Positions 387-17,352 of a stretch of DNA of 20,908 nt are shown one piece after another. Source of the DNA: a candidate division TA06 bacterium DG_78 (GTDB lineage Bacteria > Hydrothermota > Tepidihabitantia > SM23-42); contig LJNI01000013.1 of assembly GCA_001303225.1 (NCBI GenBank), positions 1 to 20,908 of the forward strand, given 5' to 3'. A program made the translations under genes and the position numbers. Within the stretch, counting starts at the first letter, position 1, and every line of letters begins with the position of its first letter. The notes beneath the pieces were generated by a model. It made no database searches. It was not told the origin of the DNA and was given only the letters and a program-made list of their open reading frames with translations.

Positions 387-414
387 TTTACAATTTTAAA
401 AAACTATATATAAT
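387..414 (+). promoter_or_regulatory. deoB promoter, near-leaderless
   Basis: TTTACA at 387-392, a 16-nt spacer, and a perfect TATAAT at 409-414. The -10 box ends 8 nt before the deoB ATG at 423 and no Shine-Dalgarno lies between, so transcription should begin within about 0-2 nt of the start codon. Confidence 0.7.
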
Positions 415-422
415 TTTGCAAT

Positions 423-1589
423 ATGAAGCGGGCAATTGTGCTCATCCTTGATGGAGTAGGTATTGGTGAGCTTCCTGATGCAGCGCAGTACCATGACCAG
501 GGGAGCAATACTCTCGTTAATTTAGCCCGCGTTTGTGGCGGTTTAGACCTTCCTGTGCTCGAACGACTCGGTTTAGGCAATATCAGTGCTATCAGGGGCG
601 TTAAAAAAGCCCCAAATCCCCTCGCGTGCTTTGGCAAAATGGCAGAGAAATCTCCTGGTAAGGATTCTACATCTGGACACTGGGAACTCTTTGGTATTAT
701 CTTAGAAAAACCGTTCCCAACGTATCCGCATGGCTTTCCTGATGAAATTGTTACTGAATTCGAATCGAGGATTGGATACAAAATTCTTGGTAATATTCCT
801 GCTTCAGGGACTGAAATCATACAGCGGTTAGGCGAAGAACATATGCGAAAAAAAGCGCCGATTGTCTACACGTCTGCTGATAGTGTTTTCCAAATTGCCT
901 GTCACATCGACATTTTCAGTTTAGACGAACTGTATACATTCTGCACAATCGCACGAGAAATGCTTCAGGGAAAACATGGTGTTGCCCGGGTTATTGCCCG
1001 ACCATTTGCTGGTGAGGTAAATAATTTCTACCGCACAAAAGACCGTCGAGACTATTCGCTACAGCCACCTGAACCGACGCTCTTGGATAGAACAAAAGAA
1101 CAGGGGCTTGCAGTGATTGTCATTGGAAAGGTCGATGATCTTTTTGGTGGCCGTGGTTACACAAAATCGTACCACTCGGTGAGTGATACGGAATGTGGAG
1201 ATTTTGTTTTAAGGGTGATGGATGACGTTGATGAAGGATTGATTGTCGCGAATTTTGTACAGTTTGATATGGATTGGGGACATCGTAATGATGTTAATGG
1301 TTTTAAGAATGGGCTCGTTGAAATTGACGAGATCATCGGTACGATAGTAGAAAAGGTCGATGAGGGTGACTTTCTCTTTATCACTGCAGATCATGGTAAT
1401 GACCCAACCACACCATCGACTGACCATTCACGTGAATACGTACCGGTGTTAGCCTACACCACGAAGAAGATGAGCAGAGATCTCGGCGTACGTCGGTCTT
1501 TTGCTGATTTGGGGAAAACTATTGCACGATACTTTAATATTGAAGGAATGAAGAATGGAGAGGATTTCTTCGATGCCTGTGTCTCGTAA
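423..1589 (+). CDS. deoB: Phosphopentomutase
   Basis: DeoB interconverts (deoxy)ribose-1-phosphate and (deoxy)ribose-5-phosphate, linking nucleoside breakdown and salvage to central metabolism. The 388-residue length is that of the family. Metal-site motifs of the alkaline-phosphatase superfamily are all visible: LDGVGIG with D10, the catalytic threonine region STSGHWE (about T83), the D282/H287 region (FDMDWGHRND), ADHGND (D322, H323) and STDHSRE (H335). It opens an operon: cdd overlaps its 3' end, followed by the ATPase/TPR gene and lptD. No Shine-Dalgarno precedes the ATG, but a promoter ends 8 nt before it. Identification is firm. Confidence 0.96.
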   Translation: MKRAIVLILDGVGIGELPDAAQYHDQGSNTLVNLARVCGGLDLPVLERLGLGNISAIRGVKKAPNPLACFGKMAEKSPGKDSTSGHWELFGIILEKPFPTYPHGFPDEIVTEFESRIGYKILGNIPASGTEIIQRLGEEHMRKKAPIVYTSADSVFQIACHIDIFSLDELYTFCTIAREMLQGKHGVARVIARPFAGEVNNFYRTKDRRDYSLQPPEPTLLDRTKEQGLAVIVIGKVDDLFGGRGYTKSYHSVSDTECGDFVLRVMDDVDEGLIVANFVQFDMDWGHRNDVNGFKNGLVEIDEIIGTIVEKVDEGDFLFITADHGNDPTTPSTDHSREYVPVLAYTTKKMSRDLGVRRSFADLGKTIARYFNIEGMKNGEDFFDACVS

Positions 1590-1974
1590 AAAAAACATAT
1601 CAAAACAATTGGTTAATGCGGTGAAAAAAACTGTGAAGGCAGCCTATGCTCCATATTCCAAGATCGTGGTTGGTGCTGGAGTTTACTGTGCAAGCGGTAA
1701 TATTTATACAGGAGTCAACATTGAAAATAGTTCATATTCACTGACTATGTGTGCTGAGCGGGTTGCTCTATTCAAGGCAATTTCTGAGGGCGAAAAGAAG
1801 ATACTCTTGCTCCTCGTATACTCTCCCCAGGTTAATTTTATTACACCGTGCGGTGCCTGTTTGCAAGTCCTCAATGAACTCGCACCTCATGTAATGGTCG
1901 TGACTATGAATAAGAAAGAAGAATTTAAATTTTATTCACTGCAGACACTGTTGCCGAAGCCATTTAAAATATGA
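1573..1974 (+). CDS. cdd: Cytidine deaminase
   Basis: This is a zinc cytidine deaminase converting cytidine or deoxycytidine to the uridine nucleosides, a pyrimidine-salvage step that pairs logically with DeoB. The family motifs are present: NIENSSY for substrate binding, CAE with the zinc cysteine and catalytic glutamate, and PCGACLQ supplying the other two zinc cysteines. An in-frame ATG exists at 1555, but I prefer 1573: GGAGAGG at 1557-1563 lies 9 nt upstream, and starting at 1573 gives 133 residues, the normal length of the small tetrameric class. The start lies inside the last codons of deoB, so translational coupling is likely. Confidence 0.93.
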   Translation: MPVSRKKNISKQLVNAVKKTVKAAYAPYSKIVVGAGVYCASGNIYTGVNIENSSYSLTMCAERVALFKAISEGEKKILLLLVYSPQVNFITPCGACLQVLNELAPHVMVVTMNKKEEFKFYSLQTLLPKPFKI

Positions 1975-2034
1975 CGAGAGATGAGATATTTTATGTGATA
2001 GTGGTACTACTATGAAATATTTTGTGGAGAGAGT

Positions 2035-3816
2035 ATGGATTACTATGTAGCTATCTCAATTCGTGATCTCAATAATGACAAGTTCAACGACCTTGTTGAA
2101 ACAGTACACAAATTTTCAGGCCATATCGAACAGACTGAAAAGGATTTGATTCTGTCACATACTGATGAACTCAATATGCTCTCGTGTCTTTTCCAGATGA
2201 GAGAGAATTATCCTGAAGCACACTATGGATTCTCTCAGTACCTCGGTATTGCCAAGGGGCTTGCAAAGATTGCAAAGGCAACAGAAATACTGATATCTGA
2301 AGAAATAGAGAAGAAAGTGATCGAAAACTTTGAGATAATGTCGCTCGGTATGCTGTCGATTGAAGGCATGTCGAGCCAGATACTTGTCTATCGCATTGAT
2401 ATACCGACTAAAAAATTACAGTTTCCGAAGCCGAAGCCACAGGTTCTGTCTATACCGCGCAGAAATGAGATTGTCTCGTTACAAAATTTGTTGAGGGTTT
2501 CAAAAGTGGTGTTGATCACCAAACCTTTAGGAAGCGGTACCACGACGTTCTTAGACCAAGTAGTAGAACAGTGGCAGGACAGGGAGATTTATAGGACAAC
2601 TTGTACGTCATATGGTATGGGTCTTACACTGAAACCGATTAACCAGATCGTTGCCCAAATCCTTGGAATTGCTAACCTCCGAAGTATTGAAGAACGGCAA
2701 AAGACCATTGAACGCAGGTTAAAAGAATTAGATATTGCTGATATCGGAACGTCGTATTTAGCACTCCTTGATTTCCTTGATTTGGGGGAAGAAGAGTCGA
2801 TTTTAGAGAAATTAGAACTCACAATGAGGGTCGAGGTTATTACCTCAACAATTGCTGACATTATTAAACGTATTTCATGGATCAAACCAGTGGTGATAAT
2901 TATCGAAGATGTAGAGAATATGGATGCGTCATCGGTTAACTTTATTCAGCACCTAAAGGATCAATTAATTGAAGAAGATATTTGTTTTATTTTATCCTCT
3001 ACACTACCACAAATTAATATATCTGGTATAAAAGAATTTGAATTGAGAGATATTGAGAAAGCACAATTGATAAGTATGATTCAAGAAGTAACTGGCGAAG
3101 AGATGGCATTGCCACCCACAACACCGTTCCATGTTGCACAATATCTCTGTCTGTATCGAGAAGAGATGATGTCGTACCTCTACCGCCAGTACTGTGGTCA
3201 AACAACCATCGCTGACTACGGTCTCTCCTTCTACGATATCAAGACAATCATAAAACGGCGTCTTGAGTTACTGGACGAAGAGAAGGAATTTATCTTCAAG
3301 CTTGCGGTTGCTGGTGCTGAATTGGATCCTGATGAACTGCCCATTGATGAGAAAGAACACTATTTGTTCAATTATTTTGTAAAGCAGAATTATTTGAAAC
3401 ATTATTTTAATCACTATATATTTGTAAACCCTCTTTTACAACAGGAAATCTATAATCTCGTACCTGATAAAGAGAAACAACATCAGCGGCTCGCAGATTA
3501 CTATAGCCGAATCGCAGGTTTTGAAGAACAGGCTGCATACCATTATCGTGAAGCAAGGAACTACAAAAAGGCAATCGAATTCATGATAAAATCCGGTGAT
3601 AGTGCCATTAAAAGAGGAGGTTATGAGGCAGGTATCCATTACTACCACCAAACCCTTGAGTTGTGTCAGAGACAGAAAGAGTCGGTTAATTTGGAATTAT
3701 TAATCACCTTGAACGAAGCACTTGCAGATATATACCGAGCATTGGGTGATGAACAGAATGCTCTAAAATACTACAAAGTTGTATTGGATAGCTACAAAGA
3801 AATACTGAAGGAATGA
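2035..3816 (+). CDS. Degenerate cyclase-homology / AAA-type ATPase / TPR protein
   Basis: I see three regions. Residues about 1-122 resemble the end of a class III nucleotide cyclase domain (the TEILISEEI and LGMLSIEG...LVYRID pattern), but no catalytic metal aspartates stand out, so it is probably not a cyclase. Residues about 140-350 resemble the ATPase module often fused to such cyclases: a P-loop-like GSGTTT (166-171) in which the Walker A lysine is threonine, and a Walker B-like VVIIIEDVE (286-294). Residues about 480-593 are TPR-like helices (YREARNYKKAIEFMIKSG). GGAGAG precedes the ATG. Its stop overlaps the lptD start as ATGA, so the two are translationally coupled. A regulatory or scaffold role is inference and the function is unknown. 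Confidence 0.72.
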   Translation: MDYYVAISIRDLNNDKFNDLVETVHKFSGHIEQTEKDLILSHTDELNMLSCLFQMRENYPEAHYGFSQYLGIAKGLAKIAKATEILISEEIEKKVIENFEIMSLGMLSIEGMSSQILVYRIDIPTKKLQFPKPKPQVLSIPRRNEIVSLQNLLRVSKVVLITKPLGSGTTTFLDQVVEQWQDREIYRTTCTSYGMGLTLKPINQIVAQILGIANLRSIEERQKTIERRLKELDIADIGTSYLALLDFLDLGEEESILEKLELTMRVEVITSTIADIIKRISWIKPVVIIIEDVENMDASSVNFIQHLKDQLIEEDICFILSSTLPQINISGIKEFELRDIEKAQLISMIQEVTGEEMALPPTTPFHVAQYLCLYREEMMSYLYRQYCGQTTIADYGLSFYDIKTIIKRRLELLDEEKEFIFKLAVAGAELDPDELPIDEKEHYLFNYFVKQNYLKHYFNHYIFVNPLLQQEIYNLVPDKEKQHQRLADYYSRIAGFEEQAAYHYREARNYKKAIEFMIKSGDSAIKRGGYEAGIHYYHQTLELCQRQKESVNLELLITLNEALADIYRALGDEQNALKYYKVVLDSYKEILKE

Positions 3817-5822
3817 TACTCCTTTTACTCCTGGGTTTTCTACAAGATACAACCCAGAGCGATACTGTTAATATTGTCCATTATAGCGCCATGCAAATAA
3901 CCTATGACCTCGAGAAATCTCTGATAATTTTACATGACTCCGCATATATCGTGTATCAAGATATCACGTTGTTCTCTGATAGTGCCTATTATCACGTTGA
4001 TAAAAACCTCTTAGAAGCGTTCGGTACGTGTGATTTACGACAGTTAGATGATTCGATTAAAGGAAACTATCTTGTGTATAATATCGAAACAAAGAAGGCA
4101 CTGATGACATCAGGCAAAACTCAAATCGAAAGTGGTTTTCTCGAAGGCGAACGAATCTACTGGATTGATGAGAATACGGTCAATGTCTATGATGGCAAGT
4201 ACACGACCTGCAGCGATTCGCCACCTCACTTCTATTTTTACTCACCAAAGATGAAGGTCTATTTAGGTGATATGGTAATTGCCCGTCCGATAGTATTATA
4301 TGTACAAGATTTGCCAATTATTGCAGCACCTTTCTGGTTTGTTCCAATTTCGACAAAGCGTAAATCCGGTTTGTTGCCATTCAGGGCAGGGAATTCCAGT
4401 ACGTATGGCAAATACATTAGAGGGTTTTCCTATTATTGGGTGATATCAGACTACGCAGATGTAACGCTTCAAGTTGATGCGTATGAGAAAAAAGGCATCA
4501 TGCCTCACCTCGAGACGGTGTGGGATTACGCACCATTTACAAAAGGAGCAGCACACTTCTCATACATAAGAGAGACAGATACAAAGATTGAGCGCTATAG
4601 TATTGAGGCGCGTAATAATTCAGACTACTTTGTCCTTGGATCGAGTTTTAACTGTGACGTAAAGTATTTGAGTGATAATACATACCACCAAGATTATGCC
4701 GAGACGACAGCACTCTGGTTGGAGAAAGAGATTACTTCGCAAGCAACGGTCAGCCGTGACATATTCGATGTTAGAAATACTGTCACCATCGAACGCAGGG
4801 AATATTTTGCTGATTCTCTTATTCTGAAATTACCATACTACACAATGACAACGCCATCACAGATGCTATTTTCTGCAGTCAACTATTCTGTTTCAGGACA
4901 TATTAGTCGTGACCGTACTACAACGCCGTACGATACGAACGATGTTACTGGTGCAAATCTTCACACCGCACCATCGTTGCAACAAAATATATTTAATCTC
5001 TTTACTGTATCACCAAAACTGAATCTCGATGCAGCGGTGTACGATGAAGATACGCTCGGTAACAAAATGCCAACGCGATTCGGCTACTCATTTGGTGCCA
5101 CTGCCAGCACAAATTTATACCGGGTGTTTCATATTGGACTGTTTGGTATTCAGGGTGTACTCCATAAACTGTCACCGAGGATAACATACTCGTACACTCC
5201 TGATTTTGATTTTGGGAGATTCCCAACAGTTGCTGGCATACCGACTTTTTCCAAAACACATACTATTAGGTTTGGGCTCGATCAGGAGCTTGAGGCGAAG
5301 GTCGGTGAAGAGGGACAAAAGCACCGTATCGCGCGCTTAAGTTTGGGTAGTGGATATAACTTGATTACCGATTCGCTCACTGCAGTGACATTTTCACTTC
5401 AACTGCCGTTCGATCCGTTTCCCCAACCAATAACGACCTTTTCATCACAGATTGATGGTTCAGTTGATCCCTACACAAGAGAATATACCTATACACTCAC
5501 GAATACATCGGCGATAGAAACACATTTCTTTTCGCTCACATTGAACCAGAGCTATACCAAAGGAGGTGTTTATCAGATGTGGTTTAATGGCAAGATTAAG
5601 CCGACAGAACATTGGTCACTCACGTATTCAGGCCGTTATGACTGGGAGTCGAAAGAACTCGTTGATTACAGCATTGGGTTGAATCGTGATTTACACTGCT
5701 GGGCAGCAGCCTTCAGCTTCAATCAATTAGGCGATGCCTGGCGCTACGATTTTAAGGTGTATATAAAAGAAATCCCTGAAGTGTCAATTGGAAAAGGGCT
5801 GTTAGGATATATTTTAGAGTAG
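3813..5822 (+). CDS. lptD: LPS-assembly outer membrane protein LptD (OstA-like)
   Basis: LptD forms the outer-membrane beta-barrel that inserts lipopolysaccharide at the cell surface. At 669 residues it is shorter than the E. coli protein but within range for other phyla. It has a short hydrophobic N-terminus (MILLLLLGFL), an OstA-like beta-rich region (about 20-130), then the conserved block with YTTCSDSPPHFYFYSPKMKV (about 130-149) and DLPII..PFWFVPISTKRKSGLLPF (about 166-190), typical of the start of the LptD barrel. The rest alternates beta strands with aromatic residues. Cysteines C73 and C133 are visible; whether they form disulfides is unknown. The ATG overlaps the previous stop, with AAGGA just upstream. 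No lptA/B/C/F/G is nearby. Confidence 0.88.
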   Translation: MILLLLLGFLQDTTQSDTVNIVHYSAMQITYDLEKSLIILHDSAYIVYQDITLFSDSAYYHVDKNLLEAFGTCDLRQLDDSIKGNYLVYNIETKKALMTSGKTQIESGFLEGERIYWIDENTVNVYDGKYTTCSDSPPHFYFYSPKMKVYLGDMVIARPIVLYVQDLPIIAAPFWFVPISTKRKSGLLPFRAGNSSTYGKYIRGFSYYWVISDYADVTLQVDAYEKKGIMPHLETVWDYAPFTKGAAHFSYIRETDTKIERYSIEARNNSDYFVLGSSFNCDVKYLSDNTYHQDYAETTALWLEKEITSQATVSRDIFDVRNTVTIERREYFADSLILKLPYYTMTTPSQMLFSAVNYSVSGHISRDRTTTPYDTNDVTGANLHTAPSLQQNIFNLFTVSPKLNLDAAVYDEDTLGNKMPTRFGYSFGATASTNLYRVFHIGLFGIQGVLHKLSPRITYSYTPDFDFGRFPTVAGIPTFSKTHTIRFGLDQELEAKVGEEGQKHRIARLSLGSGYNLITDSLTAVTFSLQLPFDPFPQPITTFSSQIDGSVDPYTREYTYTLTNTSAIETHFFSLTLNQSYTKGGVYQMWFNGKIKPTEHWSLTYSGRYDWESKELVDYSIGLNRDLHCWAAAFSFNQLGDAWRYDFKVYIKEIPEVSIGKGLLGYILE

Positions 5823-5852
5823 TAAATTGTTATACCTGATAATTCACTACTC

Positions 5853-5910
5853 TAATGCCAAATGTTAAATTTCAAATACCAATTGACGCTTTGGCATTAA
5901 TTTGACATTT
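5853..5910 (+). other. Overlapping inverted repeats downstream of lptD
   Basis: TAATGCCAAA (5853-5862) is the exact reverse complement of TTTGGCATTA (5890-5899). A second stem, 5860-5871 with 5899-5910, also pairs over 12 bp with one U-G wobble on the + strand. The two stems share bases, so they are alternatives. The right arm contains two near-identical units, TTTGGCATT and TTTGACATT. It starts 30 nt after the lptD stop and may shape the 3' end of that mRNA. No U-run follows. Confidence 0.5.
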
Positions 5911-5917
5911 TATCGTA

Positions 5918-6008
5918 TTGGAATTTCAATAAATTGAAATCCCAACAGCACCTTTGCAAAAGGTACTGTCCCGAAGGGAAGATAGCACGAGCGAAGCGAG
6001 TGCTTATC
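5918..6008 (-). repeat. Four back-to-back hairpins between lptD and the PpiD-like gene
   Basis: H1 spans 5918-5945 (loop TAAA), H2 5945-5969 (loop GCA), H3 5969-5979 (TCCC-GAA-GGGA) and H4 5981-6008 (GATA and GCAC arms around GCGAAGC, with a tandem GA/GA mismatch and one bulged T). H1 and H2 each hold one A-C mismatch on the + strand that becomes a G-U pair on the - strand, giving uninterrupted 12-bp and 11-bp stems. The minus-strand transcript would be the 3' end of the chaperone mRNA. It could be a REP-like dispersed element, a 3'-end stabiliser or a terminator. No protein frame runs through it. Confidence 0.6.
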
Positions 6009-6027
6009 TGGATTTTGTAATTTGTTA

Positions 6028-7734: not shown

Positions 7735-7757
7735 TTCAACCTCCTTGCGTAAAAGTC

Positions 7758-7778
7758 CCCCAATTTTTCGGGATGGGG
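7758..7778 (-). other. Small G+C hairpin between larA and the PpiD-like gene
   Basis: CCCCA and TGGGG form a 5-bp stem around an 11-nt loop. On the minus strand it is followed closely by ACTTTT. It could act as a weak terminator or attenuator for larA, but the stem is short and the U-run poor. It lies just upstream of the chaperone's Shine-Dalgarno. Confidence 0.3.
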
Positions 7779-7815
7779 CAAAATACCTAACATCTATTAA
7801 ATCCTTCGTTACTAT

Positions 7816-9066
7816 TCATCCTTGATTTAGCATTGGTAACACCGCTTTACCATCTGGTATAATATATGCTTTAAATTCTTCGCCATGTTCTTTTTTCATT
7901 ATGGTCAGTGCTTCGTCTGAATTCCTAACCGGTAAAAATTTCATTTGTTTGAGGATTTGTGGCTCTAGATCAGTGAGTACGTAAACCTTGTGGTTTTTAA
8001 GTATCTTTGCTGTTACAAAAGCGCGATGTCCTCCAACCTGAATATTCTTCTCAGGATAATTTACAAGATCATTGAGGGTATGTGTGAGCATATAGTTCAA
8101 AAAATTTTCGTTCCCGAACCCTTCACAACACTGCCCAATTATAATAATGCTGCCGTGAGGCTTGATTGCATGTGTAGCTGTGTTCAGCGATTTGTGGCTC
8201 GTAAAAAAATTTTTGTCCTGTGGATAGCCGCCTGCAGAAACGATCACACAATCTGCCTTTTCACGAATAGTGGTCATGCGCATTGATTTAAAGGATTGCA
8301 CTCCTTCGGTAAATGCGTATTCAGGATGTCCACAAAAAATCGCAGTGGTCTGCCGATGCGGTGTTTCAATAACATTGAAGAGATAATTGACATCGAACAT
8401 ACGGCAGGCTTCGTTCATCTCTTGAGCAATAATATTATGGTTGATTTCTCCGACATCGACATCATTACGTTTTAACTTGCAGTGATTATCTCTGATAGTT
8501 TCATAGGAAGAAATGCCAGGCAGAATTGATTTCCTGCCGCCGGAGTAGCCTGCTAAATAATGAAAATCAATCTTCCCGGTTGTTATGACAAAATCTGCCT
8601 CTCTGGCTCTTTTATTAACCTGAACTTCCAAACCGGTACTCGTTTTGCCGAGGGAAATGAGGTTAGTATGACAGTCATGTTGCGAAAATCGAAAGCGGTG
8701 GGTGAGGTCTTTGTAAAGCATGTTGTTTTCTTCTTCTGTATGTTGACGATGGGTCCCTAGTGCGATAATAAATTCAATATTTTTTTCATCGATTCCGGCA
8801 TCGACTATTTCAGCTACCAGAAATTTTAAAATCTCCGCATAATTCGCTATGGAACGAGTTATATCCGAAACAATAATGATGATATCGCCTGGTTTATTAT
8901 GTCGTAATACGTTACTCAGGCGTGGTTTACCAATAGGATTCAGAATGCTATTTTTTAGCAGCATATCGAGTGGCTTAGCTGAAGTATTATTGATTTCTAA
9001 TATCCCGAGCATATTCTTTGACAAAATGTCAAAGTTAATAATATTCTTACCGTATTTCAGATCCAT
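7816..9066 (-). CDS. larA: Nickel-pincer lactate racemase family protein (LarA, DUF2088)
   Basis: LarA enzymes use a covalently bound nickel-pincer nucleotide to racemise or epimerise 2-hydroxy acids, classically D-/L-lactate. The 416-residue protein has the family's key positions: SDITR (R71), LGTHR (H106), FHYLAGYSGGRKSILPG (H169 and the cofactor-anchoring lysine K179) and RDNH (H195). Spacing closely matches R75, H108, H174, K184 and H200 of the Lactobacillus enzyme as I remember them. Cofactor-making genes larB, larC and larE are not in this window. The substrate cannot be assigned, since the family includes malate and other racemases. A leaderless-type promoter precedes the ATG. Confidence 0.88.
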   Translation of the reverse strand: MDLKYGKNIINFDILSKNMLGILEINNTSAKPLDMLLKNSILNPIGKPRLSNVLRHNKPGDIIIIVSDITRSIANYAEILKFLVAEIVDAGIDEKNIEFIIALGTHRQHTEEENNMLYKDLTHRFRFSQHDCHTNLISLGKTSTGLEVQVNKRAREADFVITTGKIDFHYLAGYSGGRKSILPGISSYETIRDNHCKLKRNDVDVGEINHNIIAQEMNEACRMFDVNYLFNVIETPHRQTTAIFCGHPEYAFTEGVQSFKSMRMTTIREKADCVIVSAGGYPQDKNFFTSHKSLNTATHAIKPHGSIIIIGQCCEGFGNENFLNYMLTHTLNDLVNYPEKNIQVGGHRAFVTAKILKNHKVYVLTDLEPQILKQMKFLPVRNSDEALTIMKKEHGEEFKAYIIPDGKAVLPMLNQG

Positions 9067-9071
9067 AGACT

Positions 9072-9099
9072 ATTTTACTTAAATGTGAAGCCCTGTCAA
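9072..9099 (-). promoter_or_regulatory. larA promoter, leaderless type
   Basis: On the minus strand: TTGACA (9099-9094), 16-nt spacer, TAAAAT (9077-9072), then 5 nt to the ATG at 9066. No Shine-Dalgarno. It is divergent from the serS promoter about 100 bp away. Confidence 0.72.
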
Positions 9100-9195
9100 T
9101 GACTCCGGTTCTTCAGTTTTTCCACTATAGAGGACAAATATCCGCAGAGAATTGCTCATTATGGTAGTTACCGTGACGACAGCAGGCTAATTGGG

Positions 9196-9223
9196 TTGAC
9201 TTCTTATGTAAAAAGACTATAAT
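9196..9223 (+). promoter_or_regulatory. serS promoter, leaderless type
   Basis: TTGACT (9196-9201), 16-nt spacer, TATAAT (9218-9223), then 6 nt to the ATG at 9230. Transcription starting 7 nt after the -10 would begin on the A of the start codon. This leaves no room for a T-box or other leader control. Confidence 0.78.
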
Positions 9224-9229
9224 ACCCGG

Positions 9230-10498
9230 ATGATTGATTTAAAATTATTAAAGGAAAATCCAGATAGTATTCGCGAAGCACTACAAAAGAGAGGCGAAAC
9301 ACTTGATTTCGAAAAGATTATTGCGTTTGATAAAAAAAGAAGAGAGATGATAACCACACTTCAGGATCTCAATAGAGAACGTAATAAACTCTCAGAGGAA
9401 ATTGGAGAACTGAGGCGTCAGCATAAAGAGCATCGAGATCTCATGCACAAGGCGAAGACAATGTCTGATCACATAAAAGAACTGGAGAAAAAGCAGAATG
9501 AGATCGAGCGCGAATTTGCTGAACTCATTCAGTGGGTTCCTAATATTCCTCACAAATCTGTGCCGGTCGGTAGAGAAAGTGGAGCGAACAAATTTGTGCG
9601 TGGTTTGAAAGAACCACCACAATTTGAATTTGAAGTTCTTCCCCATTGGGAAATATGTGAGGCACTGGATATTCTCGATATGAAGAGAACACCAAAGATT
9701 TCGGGGTCGCGATTTATTTTATATAAAGGACTCGGTGCTTTGCTGGAACGTGCATTGATAAATTTCTTTTTAGACATACATACGAATAACCATAATTATA
9801 TCGAAATCTTTCCTCCGGTACTGAATCCAACCAATTGTCTCTACGGTACTGGTCAATTACCGAAATTGGAAGCCGATTCCTATAAATGTCGTGATGATGA
9901 CCTCTATTTAGCACCGACAGCAGAAGTTCCTCTGACCAATATGCACCGTGACGAGATCATTGCTGAAAAAGACCTGCCAATTTATTATACGGCGTACTCA
10001 CCGTGTTTCCGTAGAGAAGCAGGGTCGTACGGCAAGGAGGTGCGAGGTATAAAGCGGGTACACCAATTCAATAAGGTTGAGTTAGTCAAATATGTAACAC
10101 CCGAGAGAGGTTATTCAGAATTTGAATTATTACTCAGTGATGCCGAAGAGGTTGTAAAATTACTTGAGCTTCCCTATCGGATCATGCTCTTGTGTACTGG
10201 TGACATGACGTATGCTGCTGCAAAAACGTATGACATTGAAGTTTATGCAGCGGGAGTCGGTGAATGGTTAGAAGTTTCTTCAGTGAGTTGCTATGAGCAG
10301 TATCAAGCGCGCAGGGCAAATATTCGTTACCGTAAATCAACAGGTAGCGTAGATTATGTGTACACAATGAATGGTTCTGGTCTCGCGACGCCACGGACAT
10401 TCATTGCGATTGTAGAGAATTACCAAACAAAAGATGGGAGAATCACCATACCCAAGGTTTTGAGAAAGTATATGGGTAATAAGGAGTCTATTGGATGA
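9230..10498 (+). CDS. serS: Seryl-tRNA synthetase
   Basis: SerS attaches serine to tRNA-Ser (and tRNA-Sec). The 422-residue length is standard for the bacterial enzyme. Residues about 25-100 form the charged helical coiled-coil arm that grips the tRNA long variable arm. The class II core follows, with motif 2 around residue 258 (CFRREAGSYGKEVRGIKRVHQF) and motif 3 around residue 380 (NGSGLATPRTFIAIVENYQ). The serine-binding TAEVPLTN is also visible. The following aldolase-like gene overlaps its stop codon by ATGA. Identification is firm. Confidence 0.97.
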   Translation: MIDLKLLKENPDSIREALQKRGETLDFEKIIAFDKKRREMITTLQDLNRERNKLSEEIGELRRQHKEHRDLMHKAKTMSDHIKELEKKQNEIEREFAELIQWVPNIPHKSVPVGRESGANKFVRGLKEPPQFEFEVLPHWEICEALDILDMKRTPKISGSRFILYKGLGALLERALINFFLDIHTNNHNYIEIFPPVLNPTNCLYGTGQLPKLEADSYKCRDDDLYLAPTAEVPLTNMHRDEIIAEKDLPIYYTAYSPCFRREAGSYGKEVRGIKRVHQFNKVELVKYVTPERGYSEFELLLSDAEEVVKLLELPYRIMLLCTGDMTYAAAKTYDIEVYAAGVGEWLEVSSVSCYEQYQARRANIRYRKSTGSVDYVYTMNGSGLATPRTFIAIVENYQTKDGRITIPKVLRKYMGNKESIG

Positions 10499-11058: not shown

Positions 11059-11113
11059 ATTTTTTGTTTTATAGTTTACGCGTGTGATAATTGTGTAGTC
11101 TCAAATGTGACAT

Positions 11114-11437: not shown

Positions 11438-11476
11438 GAAAATCGTATATCCGACTCGTTTTTACACTCCGCACAA

Positions 11477-11504
11477 TTGACATTACTAAAAAATAGTATA
11501 TAAT
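11477..11504 (+). promoter_or_regulatory. queF promoter, leaderless type
   Basis: Perfect TTGACA (11477-11482), 16-nt spacer, perfect TATAAT (11499-11504), then 5 nt to the ATG at 11510. A leader preQ1 riboswitch, common for queF elsewhere, cannot fit. Confidence 0.82.
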
Positions 11505-11509
11505 GAAGT

Positions 11510-11899
11510 ATGCCACGCTATACAAAGAAACACGCTAAAGCTGGATTAACGGAGAAGTTACCGAAACTCGAGGTTCTGCCGAATCAGTTCAGGAGATATA
11601 CAATTACTATTGTTATCCCGGAATACACTTCTCTCTGTCCACGTACCCGACTGCCTGATGCAGGTACAATTACGATTGAGTACGAACCTGCTAAGGTTTT
11701 TGTTGAATTGAAGTCGCTTAAATACTACATTTTGGCATACCGTAACCTTGCTATATTTTACGAAAATGCTGTTAATCGTATTTTGAAAGATTTTGTTGCG
11801 ATGGTAAAACCACGGTGGGCAGTTGTGCGTGGAGAATTCAATCCACGGGGTGGCATTACATCAATAATCGAAGCACAATTTGGTAGAGCAAAAAAGTAA
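11510..11899 (+). CDS. queF: 7-cyano-7-deazaguanine (preQ0) reductase QueF, short type
   Basis: QueF reduces the preQ0 nitrile to preQ1 with NADPH in queuosine synthesis for tRNA wobble modification. The 129-residue protein is the short, single-domain (B. subtilis-like) form. Catalytic C43 sits in EYTSLCPRTRLPDAGTI with the partner aspartate D50. The NADPH-binding motif ELKSLKYY begins at E66, and a substrate-binding FYE (E85) follows. It appears to be its own transcription unit. No other queuosine gene is nearby, so whether preQ0 is made or imported cannot be said from this window. Confidence 0.93.
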   Translation: MPRYTKKHAKAGLTEKLPKLEVLPNQFRRYTITIVIPEYTSLCPRTRLPDAGTITIEYEPAKVFVELKSLKYYILAYRNLAIFYENAVNRILKDFVAMVKPRWAVVRGEFNPRGGITSIIEAQFGRAKK

Positions 11900-12003
11900 A
11901 TTCGAATAGTATATAATATAACTCAAAAATAGCTATTTTCTCAGAAATCATCATTATAATCGAAAGAACAAAGATTCTTTTTCAGAGCTCTCGCTCAAAA
12001 ACA

Positions 12004-12031
12004 TTGACAAAGAAGGCTTTTTAGGTATAAT
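12004..12031 (+). promoter_or_regulatory. TPR-dksA-lspA operon promoter, leaderless type
   Basis: Perfect TTGACA (12004-12009), 16-nt spacer, perfect TATAAT (12026-12031), then 7 nt to the ATG at 12039. No Shine-Dalgarno. Confidence 0.82.
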
Positions 12032-12038
12032 AACGCCT

Positions 12039-12743
12039 ATGGATAAGGAAATTCAGAGACTCTATGATGAAGCATTGCAGCAGTATGAAAAAGGGGAGCT
12101 TGAGGATTCGATAGAGAATTTTAAGAAGGTCCTCGATGCCTGCCCGGGTTATCCTGATGTTCATAATGCCCTCGGTCTCGCATATTCAGTTGCCGGTAAT
12201 AATAAGGAGGCGATCGAGAGTTTCAAAAGGGCATGTGAATTAAATCCAAATTATATCGAAGCGTATCTCAACATGGCAATCATTTATAATGAACAGTGTC
12301 AATTTGAGGATGCGATAGAAGCATTTAAAAGAGCTGCAGCTCTTGAAACTCGAGAAAAAGGATTTTCACCTCAGTTGAGGGCGCAACTTGCCCAGACATA
12401 TGCTCAGTTGGGCGATACATACTATGAATTGCAGGAGTACCGCAAAGCAAGAGATGAATATGAGAGGGCAATAAATCTCGTTCATGATTTCCTTGATATA
12501 AAATTAAAGTTGGCAAGGACATATCTCCAATTGACGGATTCTCGAAGGGCAGAAAAATTACTTCTCGATATTCTCCAACACAATCCTAAATATTTAGAGG
12601 CACGGACAACGTTGGGACTCTGCTATTACCAAAAGAAAAAATTCGACAGGGCAAAAAAAGAATGGCAGGAAGTTCTGAGTACTGATCCAGCCAATATAAA
12701 GGCAAAATCGTATTTACATATGTTGAGGGAGAAGAAAAAATGA
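12039..12743 (+). CDS. Tetratricopeptide repeat protein
   Basis: A 234-residue soluble protein made almost entirely of TPR units, with typical pairs such as YEKGELEDSIENFKKVL, YPDVHNALGLAYSVAGNNKEAIESF and PNYIEAYLNMAIIYNEQ, giving about six repeats. There is no signal peptide or membrane segment, so it is probably a cytoplasmic protein-interaction scaffold. It leads the operon with the DksA/TraR gene and lspA; the next ATG overlaps its stop (ATGA). The partner is unknown. Confidence 0.85.
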   Translation: MDKEIQRLYDEALQQYEKGELEDSIENFKKVLDACPGYPDVHNALGLAYSVAGNNKEAIESFKRACELNPNYIEAYLNMAIIYNEQCQFEDAIEAFKRAAALETREKGFSPQLRAQLAQTYAQLGDTYYELQEYRKARDEYERAINLVHDFLDIKLKLARTYLQLTDSRRAEKLLLDILQHNPKYLEARTTLGLCYYQKKKFDRAKKEWQEVLSTDPANIKAKSYLHMLREKKK

Positions 12744-13102
12744 TGAAAAAATTAAAGAAGGCAGAACTGAAACGATACGAGAAGATGTTGATTGAAGAAA
12801 GAGAAAAGATATTAAAGGAACTACAATATGAAGGTGACCAAATTGCAAAAACTCAACTCGAGACATCTGGCGATCTCTCAGCGTATTCCAATCATATGGC
12901 TGATCAGGGAACTGAGACTGAGAGGAGAGAGATTACATCACAGATTCTTTCATCACGTCGTCAGGCACTCTTTGAAATTGACCTCGCTCTGGGGAAAGTC
13001 TCCAAGGGTACCTATGGAATATGTGAGCGTTGTGGAAAACCAATAGCCAAAAGGAGGTTAAAGTTTCTGCCTCAGGCACGAGTTTGTATGAAGTGTTCCT
13101 AA
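12740..13102 (+). CDS. DksA/TraR-family zinc-finger protein
   Basis: A 120-residue protein with a charged helical coiled-coil N-terminus and a C-terminal C4 zinc finger, CxxC-17-CxxC (CERCGKPIAKRR... and CMKC at the very end). DksA/TraR proteins enter the RNA polymerase secondary channel and tune initiation, often with ppGpp. The coiled-coil tip here lacks an obvious DxxDxA signature; the nearest stretch is NHMADQGTETE. I therefore assign the family rather than DksA itself. The ATG overlaps the preceding stop and a second ATG follows at once. lspA begins 16 nt downstream, and I recall dksA-lspA adjacency from some other bacteria. Confidence 0.87.
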   Translation: MMKKLKKAELKRYEKMLIEEREKILKELQYEGDQIAKTQLETSGDLSAYSNHMADQGTETERREITSQILSSRRQALFEIDLALGKVSKGTYGICERCGKPIAKRRLKFLPQARVCMKCS

Positions 13103-13118
13103 CCATAGATATACTTTA

Positions 13119-13589
13119 ATGATTCGTAAGAAAAATATTCGCTCCTTTTTAATATTTATAATCATTGCCCTACTCATTGACCAAATCAGTAAATTACTTA
13201 TCGTAAATTTTTTATCACCACTGGACCCACCTACAGAACTAATCGGGTCGCTGTTGCGCCTTAAACTTACATACAATCCTTATGGTGTTTTCGGCATCGC
13301 CTTTGGCCCTGATATCCTGTACTATATTCTGTCATTAGCTGGTATAGTTGTTCTTATCTATGTCGGTCTTTCCTTGCAGGAAAAAATTGGTGTCATTGTT
13401 TTTGGATTTATCGTTGGTGGTGCAATCGGCAATGTAATCGATCGCCTCAGGTTGGAATATGTCATAGATTTTATCGATATGGGGATTGGCGATGTCCGGT
13501 GGTTTACCTATAATTTTGCCGATGCTTTTATTACAGTAGGAGCGATTTTCCTTCTTGTGCGAGAACTCTTTGCCAAAAAGAGTCGATAG
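13119..13589 (+). CDS. lspA: Lipoprotein signal peptidase (signal peptidase II)
   Basis: LspA cleaves diacylglyceryl-modified prolipoproteins in the inner membrane. The 156-residue protein has four hydrophobic segments and both catalytic aspartate motifs: GNVIDRLRLEYVIDFID (D117) and YNFADAFI (D135). The early LIDQISK and the NPYGVFGI block are also family features. Clients in this window would be the transglycosylase, the nuclease and the binding protein, all with lipobox-like cysteines. No Shine-Dalgarno is visible in the 16 nt before the ATG. A TATACT lies 3 nt upstream but has no -35, so how translation starts is unclear. Confidence 0.95.
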   Translation: MIRKKNIRSFLIFIIIALLIDQISKLLIVNFLSPLDPPTELIGSLLRLKLTYNPYGVFGIAFGPDILYYILSLAGIVVLIYVGLSLQEKIGVIVFGFIVGGAIGNVIDRLRLEYVIDFIDMGIGDVRWFTYNFADAFITVGAIFLLVRELFAKKSR

Positions 13590-13593
13590 TGTA

Positions 13594-13624
13594 TGAGAGC
13601 TCTGAAAAAATATTCATCCTCTCA
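13594..13624 (+). repeat. 31-bp inverted-repeat element, copy 1
   Basis: Outer arms TGAGAG and CTCTCA and inner arms TGAA and TTCA form a nested hairpin. It matches the element at 15979-16009 at 28 of 31 positions, and no difference falls in the arms. It begins 4 nt after the lspA stop codon. Confidence 0.7.
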
Positions 13625-13630
13625 CAATTA

Positions 13631-13656
13631 CCCCATAAGTTTAACAACTTACGGGG
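13631..13656 (-). other. Hairpin with a minus-strand G-U pair
   Basis: CCCCATAAGTT (13631-13641) and AACTTACGGGG (13646-13656) pair over 11 bp around a 4-nt loop. The single A-C mismatch on the + strand is a G-U pair on the - strand, so the RNA downstream of the transglycosylase gene would form it fully. A terminator role is possible, but no U-run follows directly. Confidence 0.5.
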
Positions 13657-13679
13657 CAGGCATAGATGTCAGAATGATG

Positions 13680-13730
13680 ACAGTGATATTTCAGCAGTTA
13701 TCATCATCGTCATCGTTAGGAAATCACTGT
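13680..13730. other. Long-loop inverted repeat
   Basis: ACAGTGA plus TTTC (13680-13692, with a 2-nt bulge) pairs with GAAATCACTGT (13720-13730) over 11 bp around a 27-nt loop rich in TCATC units. Its right arm overlaps the 13-mer shared with 16011-16023. Confidence 0.45.
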
Positions 13731-13754
13731 AATCTCCCTAGAGTCTATGGACGA

Positions 13755-13780
13755 AGATTTCTGAACTTTTTCAGAAATCT
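13755..13780 (-). terminator. Perfect 11-bp hairpin at the 3' end of the transglycosylase gene
   Basis: AGATTTCTGAA and TTCAGAAATCT pair perfectly around a 4-nt loop, 5 nt beyond the transglycosylase stop. The position suits a terminator or 3'-end stabiliser for convergent transcripts, but a canonical U-tract is lacking. On the minus strand it shares the 12-mer TTCTGAAAAAGT with the repeat copy at 15979-16009. Confidence 0.5.
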
Positions 13781-13785
13781 CTGTA

Positions 13786-15933
13786 TCAATTGTCTTTTGT
13801 AGAACTTCCTTCAGTTGAATCAGTCATTAATCTATTTTTCTCCAAGAGTGTTTTGTAAATTACCTGGCGGGCTAAAACTGATTTAACATAATTTCTCGTT
13901 TCATTATAGGGGATTAATTCAATAAATTCGTCAATTTCAGAATCTGAGTTGTTTGTAATCCACCGTTTGACTCTATGGGGACCAGCATTATATCCAGCAA
14001 GAGAGAAAGGAATCGAATTAAATTCTTTCAACATATTTGAAAAATAGTACCAGCCGAATTTAATCGATGTTGATGCATCGTGTACTGAATATGATGAAAC
14101 ACCTAATTCACGTGCAATCTGCTTCGCTGTTGCGGGAATAATTTGCATTAATCCTTTTGCATTTGCCGGCGATACTGCTTGGGGTTGAAATAGACTCTCT
14201 TGCCAAATCATTGCGAGGCAGAGACTCATGTCGCATTGTTCGTCCATCATAGTGAATGCATACCGTATTGGATACACTAATTTATAAAGCTCAGCAGGCA
14301 TTGATTGTATATTTTTCTTCTCAGCTAAATTTTTTAATTTCAAAGCATAGCGTATTGATTGACCATCAGCACCATACTGTGCACAGAGTCTGCAAAGGTA
14401 GAGGAGTGTTTGTGGGTTTGTTATATCAATCATACTTAACTCTTCGGCTGCATATTCTAATTCATTTAAATTAAAGAACCGTATTGCATTCTCTACGCGC
14501 ACCGAATCACCACAACTTAATAATCGTGTACTGTCTCCTAACTGGAGCATCCACTGGTCGAGAGATGTCGTATCGAAAATAATCGCAGTATCAATTCTTA
14601 CGAGAGAGTAGTAAGACAAGGGATGTTCACGGACGAGATAGCTCTTTAAATCGTCAGTTGTTTTGCCTAATTGCTCATTAATTCGCGCTCGCCAGTAGAC
14701 AAATTCAGGTGATGTGCTGGTACCCAGTATCTCACCTGCTTCTTCTAACTTACCAACCTTAAATAATTGTATTGCTGCTCTAAATTTAGTGTTTTTTTCA
14801 TCGATGAGCAAGAACGCTTCCACTGCCTTTAGTGTATCACCGACATCTTCTAAGAGAAAGGCCATTCGTTTATATCCCCGGGTAGCGTAGTCAGTACCTT
14901 TACGCATCGTGTATAGTGAATCGTAGACCAGTATTGCCCTGCCGAATTGCTCGAGCACTTCATAAATCCTACCACGGTAATAGTACGCCGCAGCCCAATC
15001 ACTCTTCGAAAGGTACTTAAGAGCTTTTGTATAATCACTCGTATTGTAGTATATTCTTCCTAGATAATAATTTACCTCGCTGTTAGATGCCGACGTGGTG
15101 AAATGTACGATTGCGCTGTCGTATTGGTTATGATAGTAATACACTTTGCCACATAATTTATGTTCTAATTTTGTCGTTGGCTGCACTTTTCGTAGTGCGT
15201 GGTAAGCTCCTGCAGATTCAGGATACATTTTGATGAGCTCCCATGCAGTTACTTTCACATTTTTTTCGTCTTTCGCTTTTTCATATTTTCTGAGCAGCAC
15301 ATATGCCCTCAGTGCTGGGTCGTTTAATTTGTCCAATTCCCGTTCAATTATTACAATATCTTCGATGTTAAATAATATTTTAAAAAGGAGATTTTGGTAT
15401 TCTTGAGCAAGATAGGAGCTGATTGAATCGATTCCGAGTAGGGTAATGAGGGAGTTTTCATAATCTTTGAGTTGAGTGTATGCCTTTGCGAGATAAAACA
15501 TTCGATAATCCTCAGGGTGAGATGGTTTTGATAAGTACTCTACTGCAGGCTGGTATGCTTCAAGGTGGTAATACGCCAATCCTTTCAGTAGGGCGTCATT
15601 CGTTATTTCAATGAGCTTATTCCAGTTCTCTGTCTTCACGAGAATAGTTTCGAGTTGATTTTGCTCTACATCTAAAGACCAGTTTAAACTATCGAATAAA
15701 TATGCTGCGCGTTTATATTCACGTTGATCAATGTACATAGTTACTAACAGGTGGGCACCCTCACGTGTATATTCTGGACTCGTAACGTACTTTGTGAGCA
15801 GGTTGTACGCGTATAGTGGATTATCCTGGTAATATCTTTCTGCTTCTTTTAAATAATCGAGTTCATATAATTTTGTAATACTTGGTTTTGGACAGGAAAT
15901 AACTAAAAATATGATGAAAAAAATTTTTTTCAT
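13786..15933 (-). CDS. Soluble-lytic-transglycosylase-type lipoprotein with TPR superhelix
   Basis: This should cleave peptidoglycan glycan strands to 1,6-anhydro products in the periplasm. The 715-residue protein starts with a lipoprotein signal (MKKIFFIIFLVISC, lipid-accepting C14), then a long TPR-like helical region (about 30-540). The SLT domain follows (about 560-700), with the catalytic glutamate in MIWQES (about E579), the GLMQIIPATAKQIA motif and AGYNAGPHRVKRW. This is the Slt70 layout with the helical ring replaced by TPRs. Because the N-terminal cysteine is followed by PKP, anchoring to the outer membrane is likely but not certain. A leaderless-type promoter precedes the ATG. Confidence 0.92.
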   Translation of the reverse strand: MKKIFFIIFLVISCPKPSITKLYELDYLKEAERYYQDNPLYAYNLLTKYVTSPEYTREGAHLLVTMYIDQREYKRAAYLFDSLNWSLDVEQNQLETILVKTENWNKLIEITNDALLKGLAYYHLEAYQPAVEYLSKPSHPEDYRMFYLAKAYTQLKDYENSLITLLGIDSISSYLAQEYQNLLFKILFNIEDIVIIERELDKLNDPALRAYVLLRKYEKAKDEKNVKVTAWELIKMYPESAGAYHALRKVQPTTKLEHKLCGKVYYYHNQYDSAIVHFTTSASNSEVNYYLGRIYYNTSDYTKALKYLSKSDWAAAYYYRGRIYEVLEQFGRAILVYDSLYTMRKGTDYATRGYKRMAFLLEDVGDTLKAVEAFLLIDEKNTKFRAAIQLFKVGKLEEAGEILGTSTSPEFVYWRARINEQLGKTTDDLKSYLVREHPLSYYSLVRIDTAIIFDTTSLDQWMLQLGDSTRLLSCGDSVRVENAIRFFNLNELEYAAEELSMIDITNPQTLLYLCRLCAQYGADGQSIRYALKLKNLAEKKNIQSMPAELYKLVYPIRYAFTMMDEQCDMSLCLAMIWQESLFQPQAVSPANAKGLMQIIPATAKQIARELGVSSYSVHDASTSIKFGWYYFSNMLKEFNSIPFSLAGYNAGPHRVKRWITNNSDSEIDEFIELIPYNETRNYVKSVLARQVIYKTLLEKNRLMTDSTEGSSTKDN

Positions 15934-15940
15934 ATACTAC

Positions 15941-15968
15941 ATTGTAACCACAAATAAATTTACGTCAA
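15941..15968 (-). promoter_or_regulatory. Transglycosylase promoter, leaderless type
   Basis: On the minus strand: TTGACG (15968-15963), 16-nt spacer, TACAAT (15946-15941), then 7 nt to the ATG at 15933. The gene therefore need not be read from ndk upstream. Confidence 0.7.
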
Positions 15969-15978
15969 GAGAAACGTG

Positions 15979-16009
15979 TGAGAGTTCTGAAAAAGTATTC
16001 ATGCTCTCA
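15979..16009 (+). repeat. 31-bp inverted-repeat element, copy 2
   Basis: Same arms as copy 1 (TGAGAG/CTCTCA and TGAA/TTCA), with three differences, all outside the arms. A 13-mer, ATCACTGTAATCT (16011-16023), follows directly; in copy 1 the same 13-mer lies 99 nt away at 13723-13735. This copy lies between the ndk stop and the transglycosylase promoter. Confidence 0.7.
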
Positions 16010-16042
16010 TATCACTGTAATCTTTTTCGCGTTGCTATGATA

Positions 16043-16465
16043 TTAAGAGTGGTCGAATAGCTCTTCTTCCATAAAGAAAAATTGTATCTCATGGTGCGGA
16101 TCTTCGTCGGGCGCTGAAGCATGAACGACATTTTCTCCAACCGATGTTCCATAGAGATTTCTGACCGTACCGTGGGCTGCTTTCTTGGGATCGGTTGCGC
16201 CAACGACTTCTCGTAATTTCGTCGGTGCATTCGGAAATTGGAGGCAACAAGCAACAATTGGACCGGATGATATGAAATCAACGAGCCAATTGTAAAAATC
16301 CTTTCCTTTATGGATCTCATAAAATGTCTCGCCTCGTTCCTTGGTGAGCCATACCATCTTCATGCCGACGATTCTAAATCCTGCATCAACAATCTGTTTT
16401 AAAATAGTACCGATGAGATTTCTCTTTACGGCATCGGGTTTGATGATGAGTAGTGTTCTATTCAT
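16043..16465 (-). CDS. ndk: Nucleoside diphosphate kinase
   Basis: Ndk balances (d)NTP pools by moving the gamma phosphate of ATP to NDPs through a phosphohistidine. With the start at 16465 the protein has 140 residues and begins MNRTLLIIKPDAVKRNLIG, the usual family N-terminus. The catalytic histidine is H115 in ENVVHASAPD, where most homologues have HGSDS, a mild variation. The GATDPKKAAHGTVRNLYG block binds nucleotide. An in-frame ATG at 16483 would add six residues, but it lies inside the promoter spacer and is rejected. The -10 box ends 7 nt before the chosen ATG. Confidence 0.95.
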   Translation of the reverse strand: MNRTLLIIKPDAVKRNLIGTILKQIVDAGFRIVGMKMVWLTKERGETFYEIHKGKDFYNWLVDFISSGPIVACCLQFPNAPTKLREVVGATDPKKAAHGTVRNLYGTSVGENVVHASAPDEDPHHEIQFFFMEEELFDHS

Positions 16466-16472
16466 AGCAGTG

Positions 16473-16500
16473 AGTATACTCATTTTTTTCCACTTGTCAA
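16473..16500 (-). promoter_or_regulatory. ndk promoter, leaderless type
   Basis: On the minus strand: perfect TTGACA (16500-16495), 16-nt spacer, TATACT (16478-16473), then 7 nt to the ATG at 16465. It settles the ndk start codon. Confidence 0.76.
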
Positions 16501-16539
16501 TGATACCCCACTAATTATCTCATATGCGCAAAAAATAAT

Positions 16540-16567
16540 TTGACAATACGTGTTAATTTATTATAAT
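16540..16567 (+). promoter_or_regulatory. SNase lipoprotein promoter, leaderless type
   Basis: Perfect TTGACA (16540-16545), 16-nt spacer, perfect TATAAT (16562-16567), then 5 nt to the ATG at 16573. It is divergent from the ndk promoter with 39 bp between the two -35 boxes. Confidence 0.82.
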
Positions 16568-16572
16568 ACAGT

Positions 16573-17352
16573 ATGGTGAGGCCTGTTACGTATTGTATGC
16601 TGATGTTTCTTGTGCTTATTTCTTGTGTAAATACTGAAAAAGTTACCGGAGTGGTCGATGGAGATACGTTTACAATAAAGGATGGTATGTCTGTTCGGCT
16701 GCTGGGAATCAATGCTCCAGAGCTGAACGAACCAGGAGGGGATATTGCCAAAGATATCCTCACCTCTTTGATTTTAAATAGAAATGTGCGTTTAGAAAAA
16801 GATATTACCGACAAAGATAATTATGGGAGATTACTGCGCTATGTATACCAAGGAAATACTTTTGTCAATGCAGAGATTGTCAGAAATGGATATGCCGAGA
16901 CAAGATTTTATCCACCAGACACACTGTATAAAAGGTATGTCGAAGAATTAGAGAAAATGGCAGTAAGGAATGGCAGAGGATTGTGGTCTTTTTCAGTCTT
17001 CCAGACACCTGATACAACCTATGCTGATGTAAAACCGCTTCTTGAGAAAAAGATAACTGTAGCAATTATCTCTTGGCGCGAAGCAGCAGAATATTATGGC
17101 CAAACAAAAACAGTTGAAGGTAAAATTGTCATGTCTAATAATACAGGTAAGGTTTGCTTTTTAAATTTCCACGAAAATTGGCGTAAATATTTTACTGCAG
17201 TGATTTTTTCGAGCGATTTTGAAAAATTTCCACCACATCCTGAAGACTACTATATACACCGTGCGGTGAGGGTAACAGGGTTAATCAAAGAATATAAGGG
17301 TAAACCAGAAATTATCGTAAAGAGTCCAAGCCAAATTGAAATAATTGAATAG
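16573..17352 (+). CDS. Staphylococcal-nuclease-like lipoprotein with C-terminal OB-fold-like domain
   Basis: A secreted nuclease is likely. The signal ends in a lipobox, FLVLISC, with C18. The SNase domain (about 22-140) has VVDGDT, RLLGINAPE (R42, E50) and DNYGRLLRY (R86), matching R35, E43 and R87 of the S. aureus enzyme. The calcium-ligand aspartate (D40 there) is N47 here, so metal use may differ. Residues about 160-258 (ISWREAAEYYGQTKTVEGKIV, VCFLNFHENW, YYIHRAVRVTGLIKEYKGKPEIIV) resemble the OB-fold nucleic-acid-binding domain seen in some extracellular nucleases such as YhcR. A role in using external DNA or RNA would fit with Cdd, DeoB and Ndk nearby, but that is inference. Confidence 0.88.
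   Translation: MVRPVTYCMLMFLVLISCVNTEKVTGVVDGDTFTIKDGMSVRLLGINAPELNEPGGDIAKDILTSLILNRNVRLEKDITDKDNYGRLLRYVYQGNTFVNAEIVRNGYAETRFYPPDTLYKRYVEELEKMAVRNGRGLWSFSVFQTPDTTYADVKPLLEKKITVAIISWREAAEYYGQTKTVEGKIVMSNNTGKVCFLNFHENWRKYFTAVIFSSDFEKFPPHPEDYYIHRAVRVTGLIKEYKGKPEIIVKSPSQIEIIE

Follow-up and report, generated by a model that had tools for sequence, protein, structure and literature searches.

Leaderless bacterial genes are already known. A leaderless-gene survey counted 207 of 953 bacterial genomes in this category, with about 20% of genes in Actinobacteria and about 40% in Deinococcus-Thermus (PMC3160421), and 21.6% of bacterial species have been predicted to use leaderless transcription (PMC9581028). 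For Deinococcus-Thermus, a phylum-wide mode of leaderless expression with the -10 region adjacent to the ORF is reported for about 30% of ORFs, and the two native promoters described as tested there gained from a -35 element added at 17 bp, not at 22 bp (PMC12340547). The -35 of these two promoters themselves thus seems weak or absent. Native E. coli sigma70 promoters, as reported, most commonly have a spacer of 17, then 18, in a range of 15 to 21, and in synthetic E. coli libraries promoters with 16-bp spacers equal those with 17 bp in mean strength (PMC8695583). Our search of the open-licence literature, mostly among the best of many hits, found no report of leaderless genes or of spacer length in WOR-3/Stahlbacteria, an absence that is not proof; the new part of the present work is the class-wide preference for 16 bp.

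The window, by which we mean the whole stretch of 20,908 nucleotides that was analysed, comes from an uncultured member of candidate phylum WOR-3 (the host) that, judged from its sequence, appears to begin many of its messages at the start codon itself. The first-pass annotation had listed eight promoters with a 16-nt spacer close to an ATG, and had claimed that no Shine-Dalgarno (SD) site precedes the eight genes. All coordinates and strands were confirmed in the sequence (Table 1), and inspection of the eight upstream regions revealed no SD site. Each element is exactly 28 nt long, with 16 nt between the hexamers and 5-8 nt from the -10 box to the ATG (this last distance is d, the number of nucleotides between the -10 box and the start codon). 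The match to the consensus is at least 11/12 in seven of the eight and 10/12 for slt. When the window was scanned independently of this list for pairs of at least 11/12 at spacers of 15-18, we obtained seven pairs at spacer 16, all of them promoters noted earlier, and one spacer-18 pair on the minus strand within the TPR gene (12250-12279).

Table 1. Promoters, ndk start codon and repeated element; positions are those of the window.
Feature	Sequence or description	Position	Strand	d (nt)	Start codon
deoB promoter	TTTACA-N16-TATAAT	387-414	+	8	ATG at 423
larA promoter	TTGACA-N16-TAAAAT	9072-9099	-	5	ATG 9064-9066
serS promoter	TTGACT-N16-TATAAT	9196-9223	+	6	ATG at 9230
queF promoter	TTGACA-N16-TATAAT	11477-11504	+	5	ATG at 11510
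TPR-gene promoter	TTGACA-N16-TATAAT	12004-12031	+	7	ATG at 12039
slt (lytic transglycosylase, SLT) promoter	TTGACG-N16-TACAAT	15941-15968	-	7	ATG 15931-15933
ndk promoter	TTGACA-N16-TATACT	16473-16500	-	7	ATG 16463-16465
SNase-gene promoter	TTGACA-N16-TATAAT	16540-16567	+	5	ATG at 16573
Probable ndk start codon	18 nt inside the longest ORF (ORF start 16483)	16463-16465	-
Repeated element, window copy	TTTTTCAGA(A/G)CTCTC	11978-11992	+
Repeated element, window copy	TTTTTCAGA(A/G)CTCTC	15980-15994	-
Repeated element, window copy	TTTTTCAGA(A/G)CTCTC	13595-13609	-
Repeated element, copies outside the window	TTTTTCAGA(A/G)CTCTC; L012, L016, L019, L120

Three further features of the window were observed. 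The ndk and SNase genes diverge from one compact region, in which each has a spacer-16 promoter facing outward (16463-16500 on the minus strand, 16540-16567 on the plus strand). The longest ORF of cdd begins within deoB (1555-1590), and by eye the ATG at 1573, which follows GGAGAGG, is the likelier start. The repeated element of Table 1 is present in seven copies in 592 kb, against none in the reversed control; at four places, which fit the TPR-gene and slt promoters and the L012 and L016 copies, the distance from the TTTCAGA of the repeat to the beginning of a TTGAC-N17-TANNNT promoter is 24 nt. From its sequence context, the element could serve as an operator, or could be a small dispersed repeat found in front of certain promoters.

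Promoter spacing and start codons in the host

The host genome comprises 2.09 Mb in 173 contigs and is 79.5% complete, with 40% GC. The genome-wide motif search proposed in the first-pass annotation was run against a reversed control and showed enrichment: TTGACN-N15/16-TANNNT-N3-9-ATG occurred 232 times (107 + 125) versus 19 times (9 + 10) in the control, and a strict form (spacer 16, TATAAT, d 4-8 to the ATG) occurred 86 times versus 0. Spacing and gene context were determined in a host sample of 40 stretches, together 571,205 bases with 429 genes called from ORFs and 112 kb between genes; gene starts were taken from a home-made ORF caller. Intergenic pairs of at least 11/12 numbered 6 at spacer 14, 2 at 15, 104 at 16, 14 at 17, 1 at 18 and 15 at 19, and at most 9 at each of the other spacers within 10-25; shuffles of the same DNA gave 1.4-2.1 at spacers 14-19 (2.1 for spacer 16). 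The counts at spacers 14 and 19 could reflect the spacer-16 sites read in a shifted register.

The boxes are those of sigma70 (group 1) promoters, TTGACA at -35 and TATAAT at -10, but the mode of the spacer is a sharp 16 and not the 17 of that group. The preferred spacer is the sole difference: the host elements still behave as sigma70 promoters, and 16 lies within the E. coli range of 17 +/- 1. A promoter of at least 10/12 was found at 73 of the 90 divergent first genes of the sample, with spacer 16 at 63 of the 73; this tally considered spacers 15-18 only and broke ties towards 16 and is hence biased, a bias of which the intergenic count is free. A spacer-16 promoter matching the consensus at 12/12 lies some 190 nt before the 16S gene. 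Of 12 tRNAs (sample and window), three have a spacer-16 promoter and one a spacer-17 promoter at a distance of up to 100 nt, by the threshold of 10/12, and eight have none.

A spacer-16 promoter of at least 10/12 precedes 133 genes of the sample. Their in-frame ATGs numbered 14 at d 5, 21 at d 6, 5 at d 7 and 6 at d 8, versus off-frame counts of 3, 0, 1 and 1, and in-frame ATGs showed a second, broad rise at d 15-21. The commonest distance was 6 nt; when the -10 box lies at -12 to -7, a d of 6 sets the A of the ATG at +1. Past the strict spacer-16 sites of the sample, 40 of the 44 ATGs at 4-8 nt were in frame and 4 were off frame. Three marks of leaderless genes were found in the host. A -10 box directly upstream of the start codon occurs more often than expected by chance. 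There is no SD before the start in the great majority of cases, an SD-like match being seen at 2 of 50 leaderless-type starts versus 62 of 164 operon-internal genes, with a background of 641 in 10385 ATGs. AUG is preferred, in that d 4-8 held 46 ATG, 12 GTG and 0 TTG codons in frame, and 6 ATG, 6 GTG and 3 TTG codons off frame or before the ORF; since GTG is found 12 times in frame versus 6 times elsewhere, some leaderless starts at GTG are possible. In-frame leaderless-type sites precede 32 of the 90 divergent genes versus 5 of the 164 internal genes. The sequence data support the view that a large group of genes has its ATG where a sigma70-type RNA polymerase should start transcription.

The 133 genes divide into 50 of leaderless type (d 4-9), 51 with an SD leader, of which 24 have leaders of 9-15 nt, and 32 in neither class. 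At the 73 promoter-bearing divergent genes the first in-frame start lies at 3-9 nt in 31, at 10 nt or more in 39 and at 0-1 nt in 3. The earlier suggestion that leaderless translation is the default for first genes does not survive this count; leaderless-type starts are common, as one of two start modes beside SD leaders. The companion suggestion of a rigid promoter spacing in the lineage fared better and is supported by sequence inference, with the sharp mode in the host and the preference for 16 in its class. Because SD-leadered genes and the 16S gene carry the 16-nt spacer too, it is not specific to leaderless genes and is instead a rule of housekeeping promoters. All four full-length 16S genes examined in the class (those of G001, G008, G031 and G039, with both strands read) carry the anti-SD tail CCTCCTTTC (CCTCC), and therefore an SD route exists beside the leaderless one; the tail was read from these class relatives, the host's own 16S match being incomplete, and no 16S match was found in CP070664.1 (G147).

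Conservation across the class, the phylum and outgroups

Loci of ndk, compared by tblastn, were detected in 26 of 30 genomes. All 21 loci in families f1 and f2 keep the spacer of 16 and a d of 5-7 (d 5 in five, d 6 in nine, d 7 in seven), and the bases between the boxes vary widely among genera. With that of the host, these loci represent 20 distinct genomes: G003 and G147, which agree in their coordinates and have an identical ndk locus, are the same genome and were counted once. Some of the other f1/f2 genomes are close kin. The five class loci in families f3, f4 and f8 are without this geometry, four of them without any pair of at least 9/12 and the remaining one with a 9/12 pair at d 10. 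The ndk starts of relatives align with the ATG given in Table 1, not with the start of the longest ORF, and the Pfam NDK model matches from residue 2 of this proposed start.

Among the best 80 of 157 SerS loci, the relatives at 66-75% identity (eight loci) belong to candidate division WOR-3 and Candidatus Stahlbacteria, and the next matches, in WOR-3 and other groups, drop to 56% or less. We inspected the upstream regions of serS at 10 of the 80 loci. The eight relatives with 66% identity or more all carry TTGACT-N16-TATAAT at d 6, one of them with TATACT as its -10 box; the locus L039 (54% identity) is without such a box pair and has an SD-like GGAGG instead. At L051 (49%; WOR-3 isolate SKYB27), TTGACT and TAAAAT stand 14 nt apart and 6 nt before the ATG, which is either a leaderless-type position with another spacing or chance.

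In each of the 41 genomes searched, namely the host plus 40 class members, the motif TTGACN-N15/16-TANNNT-N3-9-ATG was more frequent than in the control. The strict form was present in 120 of 147 phylum genomes, with at least one site in all 65 class genomes searched; it is weak in class family f6, with 2-15 sites per genome, and families f17-f27 gave 0-2 matches. A survey of 48 genomes for TTGACN-N16 or N17-TATAAT found more sites at spacer 16 than at 17 in all 15 sampled class genomes, with 233 versus 42 in the host and 76 versus 44 in G035, the least marked, and likewise in the close relative CP070664.1 (324 versus 48). Among 22 other phylum genomes, 8 favoured 16, 13 favoured 17 and 1 was tied. 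Spacer 17 exceeded 16 in nine of ten genomes from other groups, narrowly in two (8 versus 7, 4 versus 3); the exception, G148, had 11 sites at 16 and 8 at 17, both equal to its controls. By the intergenic method (pairs of at least 11/12), Litchfieldia gave 2 pairs at spacer 16 and 5 at 17, Natronincola gave 2 and 16, and G142 gave 3 and 31. The class member G028, with 48 and 15, keeps to spacer 16 less strictly than the host does. The WOR-3/Stahlbacteria class prefers spacer 16, and the host holds to it tightly.

The phylum family f37 (G142-G144) is like the host in having one strongly preferred spacing together with a leaderless-type subset, but the spacer that dominates in G142 is 17 (332 sites versus 7 at 16), not the 16 of the host. 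Each of the three genomes has 41-53 leaderless-type spacer-17 sites, although few genes in the G142 sample had a nearby promoter (15 at spacer 17, with two in-frame ATGs at d 4-8), a slender basis for its leaderless share. Because f37 combines spacer 17 with leaderless-type sites, spacer 16 and leaderless starts are separable.

Proposed mechanism, rival explanations and candidate causes

We consider it highly probable that the primary sigma factor uses the eight elements as ordinary housekeeping promoters, in a class that prefers 16 bp, and that d decides between a leaderless message and an SD leader. This reading is supported by the enrichment of the sites, the rigidity of the spacer, the agreement in reading frame, the scarcity of SD sites at leaderless-type starts and the conservation between genomes. 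Counting against it are the small strict signal in f6, the 32 genes in neither class, the five ndk loci that lack the geometry and the few tRNAs with a spacer-16 promoter. We hypothesize that the primary-sigma RNA polymerase of WOR-3/Stahlbacteria would use 16 bp, not 17 bp, as its preferred spacer, the optimum presumably being set by the RpoD holoenzyme of the class, and that it would start 6-8 nt past the -10 box. An ATG at the start point would then yield a leaderless mRNA translated from its 5'-terminal AUG, and an ATG about 15 nt or more away would yield an mRNA with a short leader and an SD site.

If the true starts were downstream in-frame codons with SD sites, the messages would have short leaders and the 5'-proximal ATG would be incidental. 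SD leaders of 9-15 nt do exist in the host (24 of the 51 leadered genes), but ATGs at d 5-7 are strongly favoured, with 40 in frame versus 4 off frame, and the strict sites agree (40 of 44). The ATG also stays at d 5-7 for ndk in 20 genomes and at d 6 for serS in eight relatives, and the Pfam NDK match beginning at residue 2 of the proposed start speaks against downstream starts as well; we judge it very improbable that the downstream codons are the starts. We hold it to be very improbable that the rigid 16-nt promoters belong to an alternative sigma factor of their own, one whose regulon would consist solely of leaderless genes, even though the host has eight places encoding sigma70 region 2, because leadered genes and the 16S gene use the same boxes and spacer and because the spacer-16 form predominates (63 of the 73 promoters at divergent genes, ties favouring 16) and has consensus housekeeping boxes.

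The 40% GC of the host would suit an origin by chance and base composition, with AT-rich upstream DNA giving such boxes near ATGs, but counts are about 12 times lower in reversed controls and about 50 times lower in shuffled ones. In the samples of the AT-richer Litchfieldia (37% GC) and Natronincola (36% GC), no promoter of spacer 16 or 17 was followed by an in-frame ATG at d 4-8, and a class member of 53% GC carries the signal too. Chance is excluded at genome scale, and the probability we leave to it is negligible.

Beyond the reading of the eight elements as housekeeping promoters, we lean, with some reserve, towards the view that the RNA polymerase of the class has been retuned: an inherited shift from 17 to 16 bp, strict in the host and near relatives, for which region 3.0 of sigma is a candidate cause, accompanied throughout the class by leaderless translation as one of its two regular ways of starting. 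The presumed direction of this shift is read from the outgroups. Spacer 16 by itself requires no changed polymerase, since 16-bp spacers in synthetic E. coli promoters are reported to average as strong as those of 17 (PMC8695583).

The host has one RpoD match at E <= 1e-60, which is also one of the eight sigma70 region 2 places. It is canonical: regions 2-4 align to E. coli RpoD, and the region 2-to-4 length is the same. Of 39 fetched loci, 37 could be parsed, and we compared 12 sequences from 16-preferring genomes with 12 from 17-preferring ones. WWI and TLEEVG lie 136 residues apart in 10 sequences of each set of 12, 137 apart in two of the 16-preferring and 135 apart in two of the 17-preferring sequences; the region 2-to-4 length shows no group difference and was rejected as the cause of the 16-bp spacer.

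At E. coli positions 454 and 458 in region 3.0, which we take to be the region reading the extended -10, the class has A and D versus V/I and E. These residues separate the spacer groups in 11 of 12, and because the 11 matching sequences are one class, the correlation is confounded with ancestry. The groups are also separated at several other positions, with two other sets scoring as high, and G041, the sole 16-preferring sequence from outside the class, keeps V and E. In keeping with such a role of region 3.0, an extended -10 (TGn) was not seen in the host (T-15 0.26, G-14 0.30; n=81) and is present in G142, which has E458 (T-15 0.78, G-14 0.74; n=23). The changes from V to A at 454 and from E to D at 458 are, on this sequence comparison, a lead only as to the cause of the 16-bp preference. 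T at -16, frequent in the host (0.74; n=81), was considered as a hallmark of spacer 16 and rejected as a class rule: it is absent in G041 (0.42, with other positions from -20 to -13 at 0.32-0.49; n=59) and weak in the class member G028 (0.37, n=90; 0.44, n=18).

These results offer a usable promoter and start-codon rule for an uncultured phylum, one that would correct gene starts such as that of ndk and aid operon prediction. A single phylum with spacer-17, mixed and spacer-16 genomes is also a natural series for what sets the distance between -35 and -10.

Compared with known systems, the host resembles Deinococcus-Thermus, as described, in that a considerable fraction of genes have their -10 box right in front of the ORF, and differs in having a strong -35 at 16 bp (PMC12340547). 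With the Actinobacteria and Mycobacterium tuberculosis it shares a TA-like box about 10 bp before the start and the presence of SD-led genes alongside; the actinobacterial boxes, as the survey presents them, are TAnnnT, poorly informative at the middle positions, and belong to high-GC genomes, whereas those of the host are near-consensus TTGACA/TATAAT at 40% GC (PMC3160421). With E. coli sigma70 it shares the TTGACA/TATAAT boxes and a canonical RpoD, but unlike in the E. coli promoters reported, spacer 16 dominates and there is almost nothing at 15 or 18 (PMC8695583).
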